DNA of 36,852 bases from a virus. The notes under the pieces were generated by a model. That model worked only from the letters and a program-made list of their open reading frames with translations. It was not told the DNA's origin and did not search any database. Below, in pieces: positions 2,611 through 27,674 of this stretch. The stretch spans positions 1-36,852 of the IMG/VR virus record IMGVR_UViG_3300036804_000107; one strand, given 5' to 3'. Every line of letters starts with the position of its first letter. Positions within the stretch are counted from its first letter, which is position 1. A program made the translations under genes and the position numbers.

Positions 2611-3009
2611 TTACCCCGACGATGTTATCAACGAATTTATCAGGCTGCGGATCGCGGGCTTGGTGCGGTCCGGTAGCTGCACAAAAATTCTCGCCAGCTT
2701 GTAGCTTTCGGTGTCGAACTCGGTGGTGTCCCCGCTGATCTTGGCCAATCCGTCCCAGCCCAATATTTCGTGCGGGTTGGTGTTGAGCGCCAAGGCGATC
2801 TTGATGAGCCGCGCCGCCGAAATCCGGTTGGTGCCTTTTTCATATTTTTGGACTTGCTGGAACGAGACATTGAGCAACTTGCCAAGTTCGTCCTGACTGA
2901 CGCCTTGATCGTTGCGCATGGCCCGTATCCGCAGGCCGATCTCCTTGTCGGTGATAGTGTTGGACCGTGCATTCTTTATCGCGACTTGCTTGGCCGCTCG
3001 CCTTGTCAT
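2611..3009 (-). CDS. XRE-family HTH transcriptional regulator
   Basis: This 132-residue DNA-binding protein starts with ATG at 3009, with AAGGAAGGTGG upstream. Residues about 25-82 form a Cro/CI-type helix-turn-helix domain (IGLRIRAMRNDQGVSQDELG, then VSFQQVQKYEKGTNRISAAR, then LNTNPHEILGW). The tail is a short helical extension ending in LINSLITSSG; there is no peptidase domain, so it is not a self-cleaving CI. This architecture is common in alphaproteobacterial chromosomes and prophages. It is followed directly by a 30-residue membrane peptide and preceded by two other small regulator-like genes. Its operator is unknown. Confidence 0.85.
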   Translation of the reverse strand: MTRRAAKQVAIKNARSNTITDKEIGLRIRAMRNDQGVSQDELGKLLNVSFQQVQKYEKGTNRISAARLIKIALALNTNPHEILGWDGLAKISGDTTEFDTESYKLARIFVQLPDRTKPAIRSLINSLITSSG

Positions 3010-5838: not shown

Positions 5839-7062
5839 TTACGCGGTTTTTACAATCGGCGGGGCAACCAGCGGGGCAATATTGCCCTGTTCGGCCTCCA
5901 AAGGCATCGGCATCGCCGCGCTGTCAAGCGCCGCGCGGATCGCCTCATCATCGACCGTGACATAACCCAGCGTCGTCTCGACCTTGGAATGATCCATCAT
6001 CGTCTGTAGGTCAACAACCGAGACCTTCTTGGCCATCCGGGTCGCGAAGGTGTGCCGCCAGTCGTGAATGCGGACCTTGCCATGCAGCCCCAGCTTCTCC
6101 TTGCAGCGGTCCCACGCCGCGTTCCAGCCGCTATAGGTGATGGGGTAGCGGCACCCCTTGATAATCCGCCGCTCGACCGCGCCAGCCCGGCCAACGTGCA
6201 TCCGCTTGCTCTTGGTGCAGAGGTAGCCGAACACAAAAACCGCGTGACGGTCGTGACGGTTATATTCGGCCTGTAACACCGCCATGGCGGCTGCCCCCAG
6301 CCGAACGTCACGGCCGACCTCCTGACGATTTTTGCCGCGAACGTCACGCGCCATTTTGGCGTCCCAATCGACCTGATCCCAGCGCAACAGGTTCTCGTTG
6401 GCCCGCAAGCCCGACAACAGCGCAAAGCGCGAAACCTGCAAATAGTTCGGGTGGATGGTGGACAACAGGACTTGTTCGGTCGGCGTCTGGATCGCCCGCT
6501 TGGCCTTGTCGCCGCGCCGCACCTTCTGCACCTTGGCCTTGAAGGCACTCCATTTGTAATGCCGGATCGTAGCCCCGTGCGCGTCGTGGGCATGGGTCAG
6601 GATGCGCTTGAACAACTCGACGCTCTGATTGACGGTCGAAGCCTTGACCCGCACCCATACCCCGCCACGGCCCTTGCGCAGACACTCTGCGCGCGCCTGC
6701 GACATCTTCTGAATATCGGAGGCCGGGATTTCGTGGATCAAAAGCCCCGGCTTGACGTATTTCTGGAAAAAATCGATTTGGGTCCGGGCGTCGTCCTCGC
6801 TCATTGAGCGGAACGTGGGCACCTTCTCGGCGATATAGATTTCACAGGCCCGGCCAAACGACATCGGCCCGCGCCCAAGTTTCTTTTCGCCCGCAATTAA
6901 TGCGATGACTTCGGCCCGCTTGTTCGCCGCGAAGGTTTCGGCTTTCGCCTTGTCAAAGGTTCCGGTGCCGTCTTTATAGGTTTTCCCGTCAACGTTAAAA
7001 CGGTAGCTCCAAATGGCATCGGCCCGCGCTCTGGTGACGTATTTGCCGGACAACTCTGACAA
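5839..7062 (-). CDS. int: Tyrosine recombinase (phage integrase)
   Basis: This 407-residue enzyme integrates and excises the phage at the att sites. The catalytic set is complete: Arg220 (LLSGLRANE), Lys244 region (VRGKNRQ), His333-Asp-Trp-Arg336 (HDWRHTFATRM), His358 (MMDHSKVETT) and the nucleophile Tyr367 (LGYVTVDD). The N-terminal part has an arm-binding beta segment (WSYRFNVDGKTYKDGTG) and a core-binding SAM-like domain. I chose the TTG at 7062 because GCAAGGGGAAA stands just upstream and matches ribosome sites of other genes here; no ATG lies near the true N-terminus, and the longer frame reads antisense-style residues. It overlaps the upstream HTH gene by about 166 bases. Confidence 0.93.
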   Translation of the reverse strand: MSELSGKYVTRARADAIWSYRFNVDGKTYKDGTGTFDKAKAETFAANKRAEVIALIAGEKKLGRGPMSFGRACEIYIAEKVPTFRSMSEDDARTQIDFFQKYVKPGLLIHEIPASDIQKMSQARAECLRKGRGGVWVRVKASTVNQSVELFKRILTHAHDAHGATIRHYKWSAFKAKVQKVRRGDKAKRAIQTPTEQVLLSTIHPNYLQVSRFALLSGLRANENLLRWDQVDWDAKMARDVRGKNRQEVGRDVRLGAAAMAVLQAEYNRHDRHAVFVFGYLCTKSKRMHVGRAGAVERRIIKGCRYPITYSGWNAAWDRCKEKLGLHGKVRIHDWRHTFATRMAKKVSVVDLQTMMDHSKVETTLGYVTVDDEAIRAALDSAAMPMPLEAEQGNIAPLVAPPIVKTA

Positions 7063-7316
7063 TGTTTTTCCCCTTGCTTCCAGATCAATTCCACATCGGA
7101 CAGCGTAAACACCCGGCGCGGACGCTTGGCGCTTGGCCCCTTCTGCCGCCACGGCAAATCCTCGATCAGCGCGATCAGGGCAAGCAGCGTGCGCTTGTCC
7201 ATTTCGAGAAGCCCGGCAAGTTCGGGCAGCGACAGATAAAGCCTGCCCTCATATGCCGCCAATATCCGCGCTGGCAGCGACGGCCTTTCAAAGTCCCGTG
7301 GGTCCATGATCGGCAT
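6897..7316 (-). CDS. HTH excisionase-like protein
   Basis: This frame begins at MPIMDPRDF (ATG 7316; a second ATG lies at 7307) and is 139 codons long. The N-terminal half (LYLSLPELAGLLEMDKRTLL, then RRVFTLSDVELIWKQG) fits a MerR/excisionase-like winged helix of the kind encoded directly before integrases, where it bends DNA and sets recombination direction. The C-terminal 55 residues overlap the integrase start and are basic and low in complexity (TRRKPKPSRRTSGPKSS), so the real functional part may be only the first 85 residues. Confidence 0.6.
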   Translation of the reverse strand: MPIMDPRDFERPSLPARILAAYEGRLYLSLPELAGLLEMDKRTLLALIALIEDLPWRQKGPSAKRPRRVFTLSDVELIWKQGEKHCQSCPANTSPERGPMPFGATVLTLTGKPIKTAPEPLTRRKPKPSRRTSGPKSSH

Positions 7317-8502: not shown

Positions 8503-8739
8503 GGCGCTTCCCCTTTGCAAAAGTGAAAGGGCAAGCTTAGGCGTAATAGTTACGAATGGAAATCCTAAAAAAAGAAAATTTGCGAATTGCGGGGGCAAAA
8601 CGATTGCCTGCCACAAAATTGATGCAAGTTAATACGCCTTTGGGATAAGCTGTTAATTTCCGGCCGGAGGGATTGACCGGGAACCGGAAACACGCCTTGG
8701 GCGTCAAAAAAAGGAACAGACCAATCACGAGGAAGTGCC
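8503..8739. promoter_or_regulatory. Divergent promoter region with repressor-type site
   Basis: This gap between a minus operon (start 8502) and a small plus gene (start 8740) carries TTAGGCGTAATAGTTACGAA at 8537-8556, the best match to the site next to the Cro-like gene. The rest is AT-rich near 8565-8650, then GC-rich with a weak ACGCC/GGCGT hairpin before a run of A (about 8694-8714). No tRNA or further gene was seen. Confidence 0.55.
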
Positions 8740-9339: not shown

Positions 9340-9463
9340 TGCATACAAGATTTCCTACACCCGCCAGTTTCAAAACCCTAGCATGAAATACGCATGGAGT
9401 AGGTCCAAGGTTGCACATATTCAAAAAAATTTCGCACGCTATCAACAGGCGGATGGCTTGCCA

Positions 9464-9482
9464 GTCGTAACTATTACTCCTA
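9464..9482. promoter_or_regulatory. Operator candidate O2, Cro side
   Basis: Read on the minus strand this site is TTAGGAGTAATAGTTACGA, nearly identical to the one at 8537-8556. It ends 12 bases before the start of the Cro-like gene, where a bound repressor would block transcription or translation initiation. Confidence 0.6.
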
Positions 9483-9494
9483 ACCTCTGCCGCC

Positions 9495-9719
9495 ATGAAA
9501 CGATTACGCACAGTCGATCAGGTGGTGGAAGTCCTCGGCGGCCTAGGAGGCCTTTGCAGGCTTACCGGAGCCAATTTCAAGCAAGCTTGGCATTGGACCG
9601 GCCGCGCCGGACAGTTTCCCGCTCAATATTACGTCGTGATGACGCGCGCGTTGCGCCGTCGCGGCTATGAAGCGCCCGCGCGCCTTTGGGCCATGAAGGG
9701 CGTCAAGGACGCGGCCTGA
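9495..9719 (+). CDS. Cro-like HTH regulator
   Basis: This 74-residue protein starts with ATG at 9495. It has a short Cro-type helix-turn-helix (VDQVVEVLGGLGGLCRLTGA, FKQAWHWTGRAGQFPAQYYV) in which the 'W-W-GRFPA' pattern is typical of small phage Cro/YdaS-like proteins. No ribosome site is visible and the operator O2 ends only 12 bases before the ATG, so the message may have a very short leader. It is the first gene of the rightward early operon, opposite the repressor. Confidence 0.75.
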   Translation: MKRLRTVDQVVEVLGGLGGLCRLTGANFKQAWHWTGRAGQFPAQYYVVMTRALRRRGYEAPARLWAMKGVKDAA

Positions 9720-14951: not shown

Positions 14952-15104
14952 TCAGTGAAGGTGCATTGAAAGCCAATAAAATAGAGCGCCGCCAGCGATA
15001 ATAAGCTGCCATTCCTCCGGCAGATTAAAAAAGCCAACGAATACGATCAGGGCACCGACAATTTCGGCGAGTTGGATTAGACCCCAAGCGATAATCCCGC
15101 TCAT
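14952..15104 (-). CDS. 50-residue membrane protein
   Basis: The ATG at 15104 overlaps the upstream stop as ATGA and opens a 50-codon frame ([20 protein letters not shown]...). Two hydrophobic helices (about residues 3-26 and 32-47) are separated by NLPEEWQ, suggesting a hairpin in the inner membrane. It is the last gene of the serine-recombinase operon and is followed by the terminator at 14866-14896. The function is unknown. Confidence 0.55.
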   Translation of the reverse strand: MSGIIAWGLIQLAEIVGALIVFVGFFNLPEEWQLIIAGGALFYWLSMHLH

Positions 15105-15337
15105 GCCTTCAAGTCCTCTGCGGTCGATTTGGTTTTCAGCATCAGGTTAATCAGCATCGCGATCACGGTTGGCACCGGATAGACATCAGCGATCCAGTTT
15201 CGCACGCTGCGACCTCCGACATTGATGGTGCGGGCAAAGCCCATTTGCGTGAAACCAAGCTTTTGCAGCTTGGCCCAGAATTCCGCGCCGGTCATGCCGC
15301 TAGCGTCAACCGGCTTTTTTTTCACTGACTTTTTCAT
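15101..15337 (-). CDS. Small HTH protein
   Basis: This 78-residue protein starts with ATG at 15337, inside the end of the recombinase gene (32-base overlap). After a lysine-rich start ([15 protein letters not shown]) comes an XRE-like helix-turn-helix ([40 protein letters not shown]). It is the only evident DNA-binding regulator in the accessory island, and therefore a candidate for the factor binding the CCTAGG-centred operators. Co-expression with the recombinase is clear from the overlap. Confidence 0.7.
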
Positions 15338-15983
15338 TTGCGTTCCTAATTAAACGATCCACCAGCCGGGCGGTATTGCCGGGCTTCCAGCTTTTGCCTT
15401 GCGGCGTTTTGATGCCTTTCATGTTGAGCAACGCGGCCAGCCGCCGCGATGACAAATTGCGATAGGGCCATACGGTTTCGCGTAAGCCTTCCGCGAATTC
15501 GCTCGCGACATCGTAATTAATGCGAGCCTGTTGCGGATTGCCAAGCTTGACACCGCGCCGCTTGGCAGCGGCGAGGGCGTCAATGGTGCGCTGTGCGATC
15601 ATGCGCCGCTCTTTCTCGGCGACGGCCGCGTAAATATGCAGCATGAACGGGTCAACGTTTGGCCCTAGCTCGCAAACGATGAACGGCACCCGCTTTGACA
15701 TCAGGCCCGCGATAAACGCGACATCGCGCGACAGCCGATCAAGCTTGGCGATGATGACCGGCGCTTTAAGTTTGGCAGCGGCTTTTAAGGCCGCGTCCAA
15801 TTCCGGGCGACGTTCCAACGCGTCGTAACCCTTGCCGGTTTCGATCTCGACAAAACCGCCCGCGATCTCATAGCCTTCATTTTCGCAAAAGGCGTCAATC
15901 GCCGCCTGTTGCGCGTCAAGGCCAAACGGGATTTTGCCTTTCCGCTCTTTCGACAAGCGGCGGTAGATAATGGCGGGTTTCAT
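15306..15983 (-). CDS. Serine recombinase (resolvase/invertase type)
   Basis: This 225-residue protein starts at [11 protein letters not shown] (ATG 15983, ATGA overlap); a longer start is unsupported. The N-terminal catalytic domain has YRRLS with the nucleophile Ser11, the Gly-Leu-Asp-Ala-Gln-Gln segment, [10 protein letters not shown] with the two active-site arginines, and [11 protein letters not shown] at the start of the long helix. The C-terminal part ([35 protein letters not shown]) is a short Recombinase-type DNA-binding domain. It is too small for a large serine integrase. DNA inversion, resolution or mobility of this island are possible roles. Confidence 0.88.
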
Positions 15984-16399
15984 TGCACGGTTTCCGGTGG
16001 CGTCCAAGGCGTGTCGGTCCGCACCATGCCGCGCGGCGTCTGTTCCAGAAAAATCGTGTTGGCGCGAATACGTTCGATATCGGTCGCGGCGCTAATGGTG
16101 CCGCCGCGTTGATCCGCGCCAATAACAAGGCCTTTGCCTAAAATCGGGGTTCGCGCGTCCCGCAGCAAAAAACCGCGCTCGCAAAGCTTGAATAGCCCTT
16201 CCTCATCAAAAAACAGCGCGTCGCGTTCGGCCAAAAGGCCTTCATGCCGTGCGACCTCAAAGGTCCGTACCGGCATGCTTTCGTGAGACAGCGCCGCATA
16301 ATAGGTTTCCAGATCGTCCCGTGTGATCTCGACTTGCGAGATTTGGCAGGCAAACGGATCGATCAGAATAGCGGTCGCAATTTTAGATTTCTTTGTCAT
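15980..16399 (-). CDS. DUF3846-like phage protein
   Basis: This 139-residue protein starts at [10 protein letters not shown] (ATG 16399) with AAGGGGA upstream. [56 protein letters not shown] and [11 protein letters not shown] follow a conserved small phage protein pattern (DUF3846-like, 'vDEeGL ... GkglvlG'). Its biochemical role is unknown. It is the first gene after promoter cassette C and is coupled to the serine recombinase. Confidence 0.65.
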
Positions 16400-16437: not shown

Positions 16438-16467
16438 TAGGCCGTAAATTCCTAGGCCGCAATAGCC
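16438..16467 (-). promoter_or_regulatory. Promoter/operator cassette C
   Basis: On the minus strand, TTGCGG and TATAGT are 17 bases apart with CCTAGG inside the spacer. About 21 of 30 bases match cassettes A and B. The leader after it shares GCGCAAT..AGCGCAGCAAGGGGAACC with cassette A. It drives the DUF3846-like gene, recombinase, HTH and membrane genes. Confidence 0.6.
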
Positions 16468-16472
16468 CAAAC

Positions 16473-16499
16473 AAAAAGCCCGGCACGATGGCCGGGCTT
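16473..16499 (-). terminator. Rho-independent terminator
   Basis: AAGCCCGGC and GCCGGGCTT (16476-16484 and 16491-16499) pair perfectly around a six-base loop, followed on the minus strand by a T run. It ends the transcript of the zinc-finger gene immediately before cassette C. Confidence 0.85.
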
Positions 16500-16521
16500 C
16501 CTGACTTGATTGTAAGGCCGT

Positions 16522-16734
16522 CTAGAGCCGGGCAATGGTTGCGATCTTATGCCGGTTATAGGTTTCGTTGCGCATGATCTGGCGGGTCGATTGCTTGCCG
16601 GTGCCACGGCAGGAAAAGCACGTTCCAGAATTGGACATCTTGCCGTTGACGCAAGCGCCCCAACCATAAACGCCGGAACCTTTGCACTTGCGGCAGATGC
16701 CCGGCCGGTCATTGGGCTGGCTTAAATCATACAT
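16522..16734 (-). CDS. DnaJ-type zinc-finger protein
   Basis: This 70-residue protein contains CRKCKGSGVYGWG at residues 14-26 and CFSCRGTGK at about 39-47, the CxxCxGxG repeats of the DnaJ cysteine-rich domain, enough for one zinc ion. It starts at TAATG with the upstream stop; GCAAGGGGAA is nine bases away. Small stand-alone versions are common in phages, where they may bind unfolded proteins or nucleic acid. The role here is unknown. Confidence 0.75.
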   Translation of the reverse strand: MYDLSQPNDRPGICRKCKGSGVYGWGACVNGKMSNSGTCFSCRGTGKQSTRQIMRNETYNRHKIATIARL

Positions 16735-16916
16735 TAGAACATTTCCCCTTGCTTTGATTGATCGGAAAACAAACCGGCATCACACGCGGCTTGCGGCTTG
16801 GATGGTTTCAGTGGCGCGGCGGCTTTGATCTTGAGCAAGCCGCCGACATTGGGCGCGGTGCCCGCGATCTCAATTTGACTAGAACGGGATATTTGCGAGC
16901 GCGACATTGCGGACAT
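16734..16916 (-). CDS. Small hypothetical protein
   Basis: This 60-residue protein overlaps the upstream gene by 38 bases and shares TAATG with the zinc-finger gene. It is low in complexity and has a basic, Lys/Pro-rich middle (LKIKAAAPLKPSKPQAA) and an acidic-aromatic end (GLFSDQSKQGEMF) like a peptide docking tail. The start is uncertain (ATG at 16916 or 16907) and no good ribosome site is visible. Confidence 0.45.
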   Translation of the reverse strand: MSAMSRSQISRSSQIEIAGTAPNVGGLLKIKAAAPLKPSKPQAACDAGLFSDQSKQGEMF

Positions 16917-17172
16917 CCCTACGCTCGCAAAGCATCAAATCGTAATCGTTCCCGGCGCTGCGAAAATCGGACCGGGCAGTTTCGCAAACGCCGCGAAACA
17001 TCACAGCGGCCTCATAGGCAGCGCGGCGGAAAGGCGACATTTCCTTTATGCCGCGCGCGTCATGATAGGCCTTGGCAGTGTTATAGACCTTGGCGGCACC
17101 GCCGCCGCCGTTGCGCTGGTATCGGTCGGCAGAGATTGCCGCCAACTCCCGCATTGCGTTGTGATCGAACAT
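16879..17172 (-). CDS. Hypothetical accessory-island protein
   Basis: This 97-residue protein starts at MFDHNAMREL (ATG 17172) with AAGGGGAACC upstream; the longer frame would read the leader. It is helical and basic (ADRYQRNGGGGAAKVYNTAK, YEAAVMFRGVCETARSDFRS). No domain was recognised. It is the first gene after cassette A, so it is probably the most highly expressed of its three-gene unit. Confidence 0.6.
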   Translation of the reverse strand: MFDHNAMRELAAISADRYQRNGGGGAAKVYNTAKAYHDARGIKEMSPFRRAAYEAAVMFRGVCETARSDFRSAGNDYDLMLCERRDVRNVALANIPF

Positions 17173-17191
17173 TGGTTCCCCTTGCTGCGCT

Positions 17192-17205
17192 GAATTGCGC
17201 AATTC
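17192..17205. promoter_or_regulatory. 14-bp palindrome in the cassette A leader
   Basis: GAATTGCGCAATTC is a perfect palindrome lying between the -10 element and the ribosome site of the 17172 gene. It could be a second operator or a short RNA hairpin. The corresponding place in cassette C retains only one half. Confidence 0.45.
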
Positions 17206-17210
17206 CAATA

Positions 17211-17262
17211 TAGGCAGTAACGGCCTAGGCAGTCAAGGCCTATAAGGAATTTATTTTCAGCC
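17211..17262 (-). promoter_or_regulatory. Promoter/operator cassette A
   Basis: On the minus strand TTGACT and TATATT are separated by 18 bases containing GCCTAGGC, and CTGCCTA occurs twice, one copy over the -10. An AT-rich AAAATAAAT stretch upstream resembles an UP element. The 52 bases match cassette B at 45 positions. Confidence 0.75.
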
Positions 17263-17265
17263 AAG

Positions 17266-17289
17266 AAAAAACCCGGCGTTTCCGCCGGG
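17266..17289 (-). terminator. Rho-independent terminator after the ardC operon
   Basis: CCCGGCG and CGCCGGG (17272-17278, 17283-17289) pair around a GAAA loop, followed on the minus strand by six T. It separates the ardC unit from cassette A. Confidence 0.85.
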
Positions 17290-17297
17290 CTGTTTCG

Positions 17298-17408
17298 CTA
17301 GTGCAGGGTTTTGCCGGGTGGCCGGGATATTGAGCTAAGGAAGGCTTCAAGCCATTTCCGCATGCGCTCTAGCTCGGCAAGGCGTTCGCGCGTTTGCTGT
17401 TCCGTCAT
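17298..17408 (-). CDS. 36-residue helical peptide
   Basis: The ATG at 17408 overlaps the ardC stop as ATGA and opens a 36-codon frame (MTEQQTRERLAELERMRKWL...). It forms one charged amphipathic helix with a proline-containing end. Its stop lies nine bases before the terminator stem, so it fills the operon exactly. It is similar in size to small co-translated partners of anti-defence proteins; function unknown. Confidence 0.5.
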   Translation of the reverse strand: MTEQQTRERLAELERMRKWLEAFLSSISRPPGKTLH

Positions 17409-18286
17409 GCCGCCACCTTGAGAGGTTCGGCGATGACAGCGGCGCGCAGGAAGTCTGCGGCCTTTTGCGCGGCGCTTGCGGCAGTAAAGAACGCCTTCGC
17501 GTCATCCTTTAGTAGCTCAATCCAATTGCCAATGTAGCTCGCGTGACGCAATTCACCATCAAGGTTGAATTCAGCGCAAAGGAAAGCCGATGCCAACTCG
17601 GCGACCAATTCCTCTGCGGCATAGGCGCGATCCCCAAAGCGCTTGCCGAATTCGCGATCAAGGCGCGGCTTGCCGCCGGTCCAATGCGCCAATTCGTGAA
17701 ACGCGGTCGCGTAATAATTCGCAGCCGATTTGAAGCTTGCAAAGGTCGGCATGCAAACCTTGTCATGGCCGGGAGAGTAGAACGCGCGATCCCCGCCGGT
17801 TTCGGAATAATTGCAACCCGTCGCGCCGATAAATTCTTCTATGGTGGCGTCACGTTCATCGGCATGGCGCGATTTGATCGGTTCCGGCGTCAAGATTTTT
17901 TCGGGCAGGTTTTCGCATTGATCGACGTTAAAGACAGTGTATTCGCGCAACATGGTGTAGCCGCGCTTGTCGTCCTCGCCCTCTGACTTGCCTTTGGTCC
18001 CGGCAACGGTCTTGACGAAATAGACCTTGAAACCGTGTTCACCCTTTTTGACGTTGCCGCCCAAATCAAGCGCTTGCTTGAATGTCAGGAAGCGCGGCGC
18101 GCTGTATGCGCCTTGCGCCATCCAAAGCAAAACGACGTTGCAGCCGGAATAGGGCCGATTGGTCGCGGCGTTGTGCGGCATGTTTTTGCCGGGTGTCGCG
18201 GACCATGGCTTAACCCATGGTGCCGATCCGGTTTCGAGTTGAACGAGAATTCGGGCGGTGACGTTTGCGTAAAGGTTGTTTGCCAT
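17405..18286 (-). CDS. ardC: ArdC-type antirestriction protein
   Basis: This 293-residue protein protects incoming DNA from host restriction. Residues 1-120 are the ArdC N-terminal ssDNA-binding domain (YANVTARILVQLETGSAPWV, KPWSA, NRPYSGCNVVLLWM, FLTFKQALDLGGNVKKGEHG). Residues about 150-290 are a zincin-like metallopeptidase with His197-Glu-Leu-Ala-His201 (AFHELAHWTGG) and a downstream glutamate helix (AAEELVAELASAF) supplying the third ligand. Length and motifs are complete. It starts at ATG 18286 with GCAAGGGGAAAA upstream and is driven by cassette B. It is usually plasmid-borne, so presence in a phage marks an anti-defence cargo. Confidence 0.93.
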   Translation of the reverse strand: MANNLYANVTARILVQLETGSAPWVKPWSATPGKNMPHNAATNRPYSGCNVVLLWMAQGAYSAPRFLTFKQALDLGGNVKKGEHGFKVYFVKTVAGTKGKSEGEDDKRGYTMLREYTVFNVDQCENLPEKILTPEPIKSRHADERDATIEEFIGATGCNYSETGGDRAFYSPGHDKVCMPTFASFKSAANYYATAFHELAHWTGGKPRLDREFGKRFGDRAYAAEELVAELASAFLCAEFNLDGELRHASYIGNWIELLKDDAKAFFTAASAAQKAADFLRAAVIAEPLKVAA

Positions 18287-18332
18287 TTGAAGTTTTCCCC
18301 TTGCGATGGCGTTGCGGTAAGCAAGGGGACAG

Positions 18333-18384
18333 TAGGCAGTAACAGCCTAGGCCGTCAAGGCCTAAGAGATATTTATTTTCGGCC
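18333..18384 (-). promoter_or_regulatory. Promoter/operator cassette B (ardC promoter)
   Basis: On the minus strand TTGACG and TACTGT lie 18 bases apart, with GCCTAGGC in the spacer and an AT-rich AAAATAAAT upstream. The 52 bases equal cassette A except for seven positions, clustered between the -35 box and the AT-rich part. Confidence 0.75.
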
Positions 18385-18405
18385 ATCAATCGAGAGGTAA
18401 CAGCG

Positions 18406-18609: not shown

Positions 18610-19080
18610 ATGGCACCATTTCCCCAAACCACGGTTCCGGCGCATTGGCGTGATGCCAGCGCACGCGGGAGGCCTTCCGAGTATCGGCAGGAACACTGCG
18701 AAGCGGTGATTTCATTCATGGCACAGGGATACAGTCTAACGGCCTTTGCCGGATCGATCCGGGTTGCGAGGGATACGGTTTACGAATGGATCAAATGCCA
18801 CAGCGAATTCTCCGACGCTGTATCCCGCGCGCGCGGCGCAAGAGTTACAGCGCTAGAAGCCAAGCTTTTGCGATCTCGGAAAGGCGCGGAAACGACAGCG
18901 GCGATCTTTGCCTTGCGCAATGCCGATCCGACCGAATGGCGCGATGTCAAGCATACCCAGCACGTCCACACGCTAGACGCTGCAACGCTTACGGACGCGC
19001 AGCTATACGCCATTGCGAGCGGCACGCATGCTGGTGACGCGTCTATCGTTGATGCTGAATTCGAGCGCGTTAAGGGTTGA
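18610..19080 (+). CDS. terS: Terminase small subunit-like protein
   Basis: This 156-residue protein starts with ATG at 18610. Residues 18-75 (RGRPSEYRQEHCEAVISFMA, GYSLTAFAGSIRVARDTVYE, WIKCHSEFSDAVSRARGARV) form a helix-turn-helix of the kind found in phage small terminases, which recognise the packaging site. The middle (LEAKLLRSRKGAETTAAIFA, LRNADPTEWRDVKHTQHVH) is the usual oligomerisation helix followed by the conserved 'ADPxEWRD' strand. The large subunit lies 2.8 kb downstream, separated by ten small genes, which is unusual. Confidence 0.85.
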   Translation: MAPFPQTTVPAHWRDASARGRPSEYRQEHCEAVISFMAQGYSLTAFAGSIRVARDTVYEWIKCHSEFSDAVSRARGARVTALEAKLLRSRKGAETTAAIFALRNADPTEWRDVKHTQHVHTLDAATLTDAQLYAIASGTHAGDASIVDAEFERVKG

Positions 19081-26480: not shown

Positions 26481-27674
26481 ATGCTTACGTCTAATCACGT
26501 CAACAATGAACTAATCAAATTTCGTCGTCAGGTCATTTCGGATTTTCTGCGACGGTCGCGGTTCGACCCGTTCATGGGCGATACCTCGACCTCGGTGATC
26601 GTCCGCATGGCCGATCTCGAAACCAACGGCAAGGAAATCAACATTCCCCTTGTCAACCAGATGACCGGCCCCGGCGTGGGTGTCGGCACGCTGCGCGGCA
26701 ATGAGGAAATGATGGACAGCTACGGCTTTCCGGTGTGGGCGGATTGGGGCCGCAACGCGGTTGCCAACAATCGTGCCGTCAACAAGGAAAGCTCGTTTGA
26801 TGTTCGGTCCACCGCGCGCAATCTGTTGCGCGGCTGGTCGCGTCGTATCGTCCGCGATGACATCACGGATGCGCTGTTGTCGATCCCGACCGCTGCGATC
26901 CAGCCCGGCCGCTTCCAAGTGCCCGGCAACCGCGTCAACGGCATCCGATTTGGTGTCGCGACGGCGGCACAGCAGAACTCTTGGACCGGCGCGAACTTTG
27001 ATCGTTTGCTGTTCGGCAAAGACCTTGGCAACTATTCGTCCACCTTCGCGACCGCGATTGCCAATGTGGACGCGACCAACGATCTGATGACGGCGGCGAA
27101 CGGCTCGCTGATGAAACAGCTTGCCAAGCAGTCCGGCGTCGATCCGGCCAACCCCGGCGTCTACACCGGGCGGCCCAAGATCACGCCTTGGGAAATAGAG
27201 GAACTCGATGAGGAAATGTATGTCTGTTTCCTCGGCGACCGCAATTTCCAGAACCTGCAAAACGACCCGACGATGTTCCAAGCGAACCGCGATGCGCGTG
27301 CGCGTGAGAACAACCCGACCGCAAACAACCCGATCTTCACGGGCGGCGCGTTGCTCTATGACGGCATTCTCTACAAGAACATTCCCGAAATCACTTCGCG
27401 GTTGCTCTTGAAGGGTATCGGTGCGGCTGGCGTCGATGTCGAACCGATCTTCCTCTGCGGTCAGGCGGCGATGGCCTACGCAATGGGCCAGTTGCCGCGC
27501 CCGACGCAGTTGGAAGATGGCGATTACGAATTCGTTTTCGGCATCGGCATTGAAACGCAATATGGTGTCGGAAAAATTGCGAAAGCACCGCAGACGGTGC
27601 AGGGCGCAACGGCTGGCGATCTGGTCGATTGGGGCATGGTGACGGGCTTCATGGCCGCACCGCCTCACACCTAG
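26481..27674 (+). CDS. Major capsid protein, DUF4043/N4 gp56-like family
   Basis: This 397-residue coat protein starts with ATG at 26481, with AAGGGG upstream. INIPLVNQMTGPGVGVGTLR, GNEEMMDSYGFPVWADWGRN and VNKESSFDVRSTARNLLRGW are the pattern of the DUF4043 capsid family; later segments (WEIEELDEEMYVCFLGDRNF, GGALLYDGILYKNIPEI, EDGDYEFVFGIGIETQYGVG) also agree. The family adopts the HK97 fold. P22-type portal and tail genes together with a DUF4043 coat make a mosaic head module. A strong terminator follows. Confidence 0.9.
   Translation: MLTSNHVNNELIKFRRQVISDFLRRSRFDPFMGDTSTSVIVRMADLETNGKEINIPLVNQMTGPGVGVGTLRGNEEMMDSYGFPVWADWGRNAVANNRAVNKESSFDVRSTARNLLRGWSRRIVRDDITDALLSIPTAAIQPGRFQVPGNRVNGIRFGVATAAQQNSWTGANFDRLLFGKDLGNYSSTFATAIANVDATNDLMTAANGSLMKQLAKQSGVDPANPGVYTGRPKITPWEIEELDEEMYVCFLGDRNFQNLQNDPTMFQANRDARARENNPTANNPIFTGGALLYDGILYKNIPEITSRLLLKGIGAAGVDVEPIFLCGQAAMAYAMGQLPRPTQLEDGDYEFVFGIGIETQYGVGKIAKAPQTVQGATAGDLVDWGMVTGFMAAPPHT

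Follow-up and report, generated by a model that had tools for sequence, protein, structure and literature searches.

Acr loci are already known to cluster with anti-restriction genes such as ArdA (PMC7648647), and counter-defence genes in acr-aca operons are subject to autorepression (PMC9410906). On the IncN plasmid pKM101, repeated upstream elements termed CUP precede antirestriction and other genes and answer to one repressor, which also acts on its own promoter (PMC6289460, citing Delver and Belogurov 1997). In plasmid p576 (pLS20 clade II; EGeRS2/Regp576), several establishment operons are controlled by a single repressor and expressed in a transient burst on entry, and measurements on p576 showed that Regp576 represses its own promoter less strictly (PMC8708921). 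Early anti-defence genes in archaeal viruses form many small, single-gene units with one strong regulatory sequence, probably repressed by Aca8 (PMC11065993). In cluster K mycobacteriophages, the SAS/ESAS sequences, a start-site leader repeat together with 17-bp inverted repeats, lie upstream of small genes (PMC3203893). Here, we describe three promoter elements, A, B and C, of an antirestriction island in a viral genome. With a probability that we put at about 0.85, these are the operator-promoters of one regulon under the phage's own Aca1-like repressor, which would produce an early anti-defence pulse followed by shut-off.

Layout of the island and architecture of its promoters

The window, by which we mean the whole stretch of DNA analysed, is an IMG/VR virus record of 36,852 bases. 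It encodes a tyrosine integrase (5839-7152) and a CI/XRE-like regulator (2611-3009), which together point to a temperate tailed phage. The island is bounded on one side by the gene for the terminase small subunit (18610-19080) and on the other by early plus-strand genes; the terminase has 46% similarity to that of a Microcystis phage and gives no pointer to the host. Elsewhere in the window, a 32-nt inverted pair (8534-8565 and 9455-9486, 84%), with GTAATAGTTACGA and TCGTAACTATTAC, flanks a divergent region before a 58-aa Cro-like ORF at 9543, and these repeats are perhaps lysis-lysogeny operators.

The island consists of three units, B, A and C, all on the minus strand and each named for the element at its head. 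Unit B comprises ardC (17405-18286) and, 3' of it, the gene for a 36-aa peptide (family F10, 17298-17408). The ardC product is a 293-aa antirestriction protein with an ArdcN and a zincin-like metallopeptidase domain (Pfam, 2e-35 for one of the pair and 2e-46 for the other; PHROG 7245, 1e-87); a homologue of the 36-aa peptide adjoins ardC in L011 and another lies further along the L016 island. Unit A encodes three small proteins, namely, a first one of 97 aa (family F2, 16879-17172, in 11 islands), one of 57 aa (family F4, 16734-16907, in 9 islands), and a 70-aa CxxCxGxG zinc-finger-like protein (family F3, 16522-16734, in 11 islands) whose match to Pfam DnaJ_CXXCXGXG (E 0.003) falls under the curated cut-off. 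Unit C has four genes. These encode a 139-aa DUF3846-like protein (15980-16399; Pfam E 2e-4, under the curated cut-off; homologue in L019), a 225-aa small serine recombinase (15306-15983; Pfam Resolvase, 1e-21), a 78-aa HTH protein (15101-15337) that we propose as the Aca1-like repressor of A, B and C, and a 50-aa membrane peptide (14952-15104), seen from its translation, whose start overlaps the HTH stop. Minus-strand terminators mark the boundary between the ardC unit and element A (17270-17291, z -5.4) and that between the zinc-finger gene and element C (16473-16503, z -4.4). Since these strong hairpins lie directly upstream of A and C, the three elements head separate units, and the earlier note was right both in describing three adjacent units headed by the elements and in the gene content that it gave them.

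Element B (18333-18364, minus strand TAGGCCTTGACGGCCTAGGCTGTTACTGCCTA) heads ardC and contains sites at 18348-18364 and 18333-18349, with a -35 box TTGACG (18358-18353), a -10 box TACTGT (18334-18329) and a spacer of 18. Element A (17211-17242, TAGGCCTTGACTGCCTAGGCCGTTACTGCCTA), heading the three small genes, has sites at 17226-17242 and 17211-17227 and the boxes TTGACT (17236-17231) and TATATT (17212-17207), again with a spacer of 18. Element C (16438-16469) heads the regulator's own unit; its inner site spans 16438-16454, its outer half-site is degenerate (TGGGC), and its boxes, TTGCGG and TATAGT, are separated by a spacer of 17. All six boxes are on the minus strand, as the earlier note had claimed. 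An A/T-rich, UP-like stretch precedes A (17243-17263, minus strand, TGGCTGAAAATAAATTCCTTA) and has a counterpart upstream of B (18365-18385); stretches resembling that of A occur in relatives (ATAAATCCCCT and ATAATTTCG). A generic promoter scan passes only A, not B or C, and the poor -10 of B and -35 of C make an accessory factor conceivable.

The similarities previously reported among the elements were recovered, with A and B agreeing at 45 of 52 bases, C and A at 21 of 30 (22 of 30 for C and B), and the leader common to A and C at 24 of 27, here up to the start codon. When the window was searched by BLAST with the A region, B (E 1e-13) and C (E 8e-10) were returned and no other match. The leaders of A and C each form a small GCGC hairpin. 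A repeated ribosome-site leader, GCAAGGGGAA, stands before several starts, at 16743 and 14833 of the window as well as in the leaders of A, B and C.

The one claim that did not hold concerns CCTAGG, described as the centre of a single palindrome in the spacer, which is instead the junction of two 17-bp palindromes. The operator consists of two copies of TAGGC-N7-GCCTA (minus-strand unit TAGGCNNTNACNGCCTA) in head-to-tail arrangement, with a period of 15 bp and a TA common to both; the -35 (TTGAC) lies in the outer copy, and the inner copy runs just into the -10, whose first bases form its end. All three island promoters carry the site, in degenerate form in C, and the window has one weak match outside the island, at 27462-27478. 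At up to three mismatches, TAGGCNNTNACTGCCTA occurs 16 times in the window, counting both strands of a palindrome, against 0.95 expected, and none of the shuffles reaches 16. As the DNA helix has 10.5 bp per turn, dimers centred 15 bp from each other would sit on nearly opposite faces.

The element in other viruses and plasmids

Conservation in related islands had been named beforehand as a check on the element, and the element does recur in about 20 other IMG/VR viral contigs, in the same position ahead of genes and in one to six copies per contig. A tandem pattern built on the window alone identified five stretches, which belong to four or five other viral contigs; more loci were found with a looser tandem pattern, and others through ArdC homologues. 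In the fetched loci, the pattern TAG-N3-TTGAC-N3-CTAG-N11-CTA has 62 matches at zero to two mismatches, compared with 0.33 in shuffles; 29 are perfect and 33 near, many of the near matches being reverse-strand readings of the same elements. The site starts 57-85 bp upstream of the gene start (median 71, 45 cases). When 84,980 species genomes of bacteria and archaea were searched with the tandem pattern, the one weak match returned was in Shewanella, and we treat it as chance.

What lies between the elements differs from phage to phage. ArdC is present in most, along with many small proteins of no known identity, but the cargo also includes DUF2958 (L074) and an ArdA-family gene, unrelated to ArdC, in an island cassette of L004 (3976-4536; Pfam, 5e-42) and L007 (3531-4091, called by similarity to the L004 copy). 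The cassettes follow the order promoter, genes, terminator, with ArdC, ArdA and small genes shuffled among contigs. As different genes occupy the same position between the same elements in different phages, the island is a cassette array whose constant part is the promoter-operator.

Such variation in cassette content is also what would be expected if the 32-bp elements were crossover sites at which the island's serine recombinase shuffles or inverts cassettes. The 32 bp of the element form a near-palindrome around a 2-bp centre (TA), and a recombinase of the catalytic type adjoins the HTH gene in most islands. Recombinase homologues are found in most related islands but not all, and the enzyme is dispensable for the elements, as evidenced by L004, L007 and L016, which keep them without it. 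Moreover, all copies have the same orientation and a fixed register with the -35 and the start codon, where relatives have a single palindrome the site is of odd length and lacks the 2-bp centre, and recombinase distance is unrelated to operator type (r -0.20, p 0.92). We therefore consider a role as crossover sites very unlikely.

Identity of 87% between A and B and of 79% between A and C could equally reflect recent promoter duplications with no common regulator. Across divergent phages, however, the half-sites are kept while the flanks differ, and within a phage the letters of all copies change together, which leaves simple duplication an extremely improbable account. Other ArdC phages keep the architecture but with different letters; the half-site reads TAGCG in L015 and L016 and TAGGG in L012 and L019, the variants being largely uniform across the copies within each phage.

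The site extends to a plasmid record, Methylobacterium radiotolerans pNYY1_6 (L077), possibly a phage-plasmid, which encodes an HTH protein 38% identical to that of the window. TAGGC-N7-GCCTA stands there directly after TTGAC in the ardC promoter, and three more sites follow a similar -35; the four promoter-like sites are at 164, 2460, 3587 and 4676. The record has an ardC-like gene, and several of the four sites have a common leader. Promoters in this plasmid and in L018 have one site each, which suggests that the operator in its basic form is probably the inner site, with the outer site as an extra.

The candidate regulator and its operator code

The 78-aa HTH protein is probably related to Aca1 of Pseudomonas phages. 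A profile of 17 members searched against PDB sequences has Aca1 as its best match, a weak one (E 0.007) confined to residues 19-52 (34 residues), and no Pfam or NCBIfam model scores the window protein above its cut-off. The sequence collection was scanned with two subgroups of the HTH alignment, the full alignment being too diverse. The nearest folds to the predicted structure (pLDDT 83) are Aca2 (Z 9.5), HigA2 (9.1), Aca10 (8.6), MqsA and Aca1 (7.9). Homologues occur in 16 of the 23 records examined, mostly in the last unit, at or near the island end alongside ArdC and, in relatives, also ArdA. In most relatives the HTH and the element occur together, and this is also true of contigs identified through the HTH alone; L089 and L090 have the HTH and a single site, which lies near the ribosome site. 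A tblastn search with the HTH gave one weak phage match and two plasmid matches.

The Aca1 operator in the acr promoter of phage JBD30, as printed in PMC9410881, contains TTAGGCACAATGTGCCTAA. The same sequence was read in the JBD30 genome, and it is TAGGC-N7-GCCTA, with the half-sites and spacing of the window element. Because the window operator had been derived without reference to Aca1, the match between the two, in ten bases and in a spacing, constitutes independent support.

Residue 43 is the alignment column most closely tied to operator type. It comes second in the recognition helix as modelled (42-49) and aligns with Arg44 of Aca1, a residue important for binding. Proteins with Arg43 go with G at base 4 of the half-site in 126 of 136 half-sites and those with Gln43, found in only two phages, with C in 16 of 16, whereas Ala43, represented by the single group of L086 (found by the HTH alone), goes with mixed C, G and A. 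Recognition-helix distance tracks operator distance (p 0.02, partial p 0.013), which the rest of the protein does not, and whole-HTH distance is not significant against operator type in a Mantel test (p 0.10); these statistics ignore phylogeny and involve few residue classes. The conserved element, the likeness to Aca1 and this covariation between helix and operator lend support, at the sequence level, to the earlier suggestion that one regulator, probably the small HTH protein, controls the whole island.

In the promoters of HTH units, the outer half-site is usually defective. The outer TAG is kept in 2 of 13 of them, compared with 28 of 34 other promoters, and is thus absent from 11 of 13 as opposed to 6 of 34 (Fisher p 4e-5); the only promoter of L016 was left out of this count and, if included, makes the absence 11 of 14. 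Element C is the HTH-unit promoter of the window, and HTH units headed by the TGGGCTATTGCGGCCTAGG form are also found in L004, L005/L009 and L007. With no good outer half-site in element C, the promoter from which the repressor is itself made should be the one least tightly closed, and self-repression is predicted to be weaker than repression of the other promoters.

Two further operator types were encountered at the equivalent promoter position, ahead of ArdC and other genes. The ArdC islands of L013 (3151, 3925, 4946 and 6577) and L014 (1910, 3103 and 4158) have ATCCAA-N5-TTGGAT directly after TTGAC in each promoter, with no Aca1-like HTH beside the recombinase in the stretches examined, and may represent a second repressor-operator type. 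In L010, a 75-kb phage contig, TAGTAC-N7-GTACTA follows CTTGAC and is perfect at five promoters (1224, 1691, 4251, 7584 and 9293), including that of ardC, and near-perfect at several more, making this regulon roughly equal in size to the largest of the others; the fetched stretch contains no such HTH. These palindromes, in examined stretches that lack the HTH, imply that some relatives use another regulator, which was sought for both types (for L010, in the fetched stretch only) and not found.

If L013 and L014 repeat palindromes with no HTH beside them, the elements in the window might likewise be controlled by a host factor or by the main repressor of the phage, for which the CI/XRE-like protein at 2611-3009 would be a candidate, with the small HTH a bystander. 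We regard this as quite unlikely, as the operator letters track the recognition helix of the small HTH, Aca1 is known to bind the same sequence, and beyond the island the window has only the single weak palindrome match at 27462-27478.

A different question is the sign of the regulation. Controller proteins of restriction-modification systems are small HTH dimers that act on paired palindromes of about 35 bp. They appear in the fold list of the HTH at Z 5-6, and the HTH might activate the promoters, or first activate and then repress them. Both sites, however, lie over the -35 and -10 rather than upstream, and the near-consensus -35 of A and of the best relatives needs no activator. Activation thus seems improbable to us; sites over both boxes point to repression by polymerase exclusion, as shown for Aca families (PMC9410906).

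The proposed regulon and its relation to known systems

Taken as a regulon under the Aca1-like repressor, the island would work as follows. On infection no repressor is yet present, and the promoters, with their TTGAC -35 and UP-like A/T stretch, would fire immediately to give ArdC and the neighbouring small proteins as early products. Unit C, the last, would also make the repressor, which would accumulate until its dimers occupy TAGGC-N7-GCCTA over the -35 and -10 and exclude RNA polymerase. The pulse would then end, and the island would stay silent in the lysogen. That the promoters are active, that the repressor binds and silences them, that a pulse results and that genes beyond ardC have an anti-defence role is what we infer. 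Against Pfam and PHROGs, the island proteins of the window match no anti-CRISPR family, the known cargo being antirestriction. Since every cassette carries the operator, its small genes of no known identity are strong candidates for counter-defence proteins.

An incoming phage whose operator matches that of a resident prophage would have its counter-defence genes silenced by the prophage's repressor. Phages of this group may, for that reason, carry orthogonal anti-defence regulons with switched repressor specificity, a tentative idea that we hold to be doubtful; the switch would lie in residue 43 and half-site base 4 or, elsewhere, in replacement of the whole repressor-operator pair. If true, the operator would be an immunity code for anti-defence and a handle for new anti-defence genes. 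With the code it becomes possible to investigate whether superinfecting phages have their counter-defence blocked by prophages, and in practice the half-site pattern can serve for searches.

The proposed working principle is the same as in acr-aca operons, pKM101 CUP/ArdK, p576 and the archaeal virus early genes, with several promoters (A, B and C) having one operator, including that of the candidate repressor, whose unit C heads. The closest likeness is to JBD30 Aca1 and acr-aca of Pseudomonas phages, in which a small HTH is also last in its unit and TAGGC-N7-GCCTA is in the promoter. Here, however, several separate promoters take the place of one operon, the -35 and -10 are spanned by two sites with a 2-bp overlap, the cargo is antirestriction together with genes of no known identity, and sequence similarity to Aca1 is weak. 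The pKM101 CUP/ArdK system has repeated elements and a single repressor that includes its own promoter, but is on a plasmid, with another repressor and another sequence (a 13-nt consensus). The predicted weaker self-repression at element C matches the Regp576 arrangement, although the p576 repressor is a ribbon-helix-helix protein acting on direct-repeat operators outside the core promoter, in a Gram-positive plasmid. The Aca8 system differs in its archaeal promoters and has no palindrome code. Cluster K ESAS, compared by description, likewise has letters in its repeats that are specific to phage groups, but its sequences and host are different, and its function was not identified in PMC3203893.

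The literature searched contained no description of such an array with a double operator and a residue-base code. Aca-type control would thereby be extended from single acr-aca operons to an array of separately promoted cassettes in temperate phages, with regulator, operator and specificity code all readable from sequence. What is new here is the cassette array in a temperate phage, the overlapping double operator that includes the -35, and the readable residue-base code.
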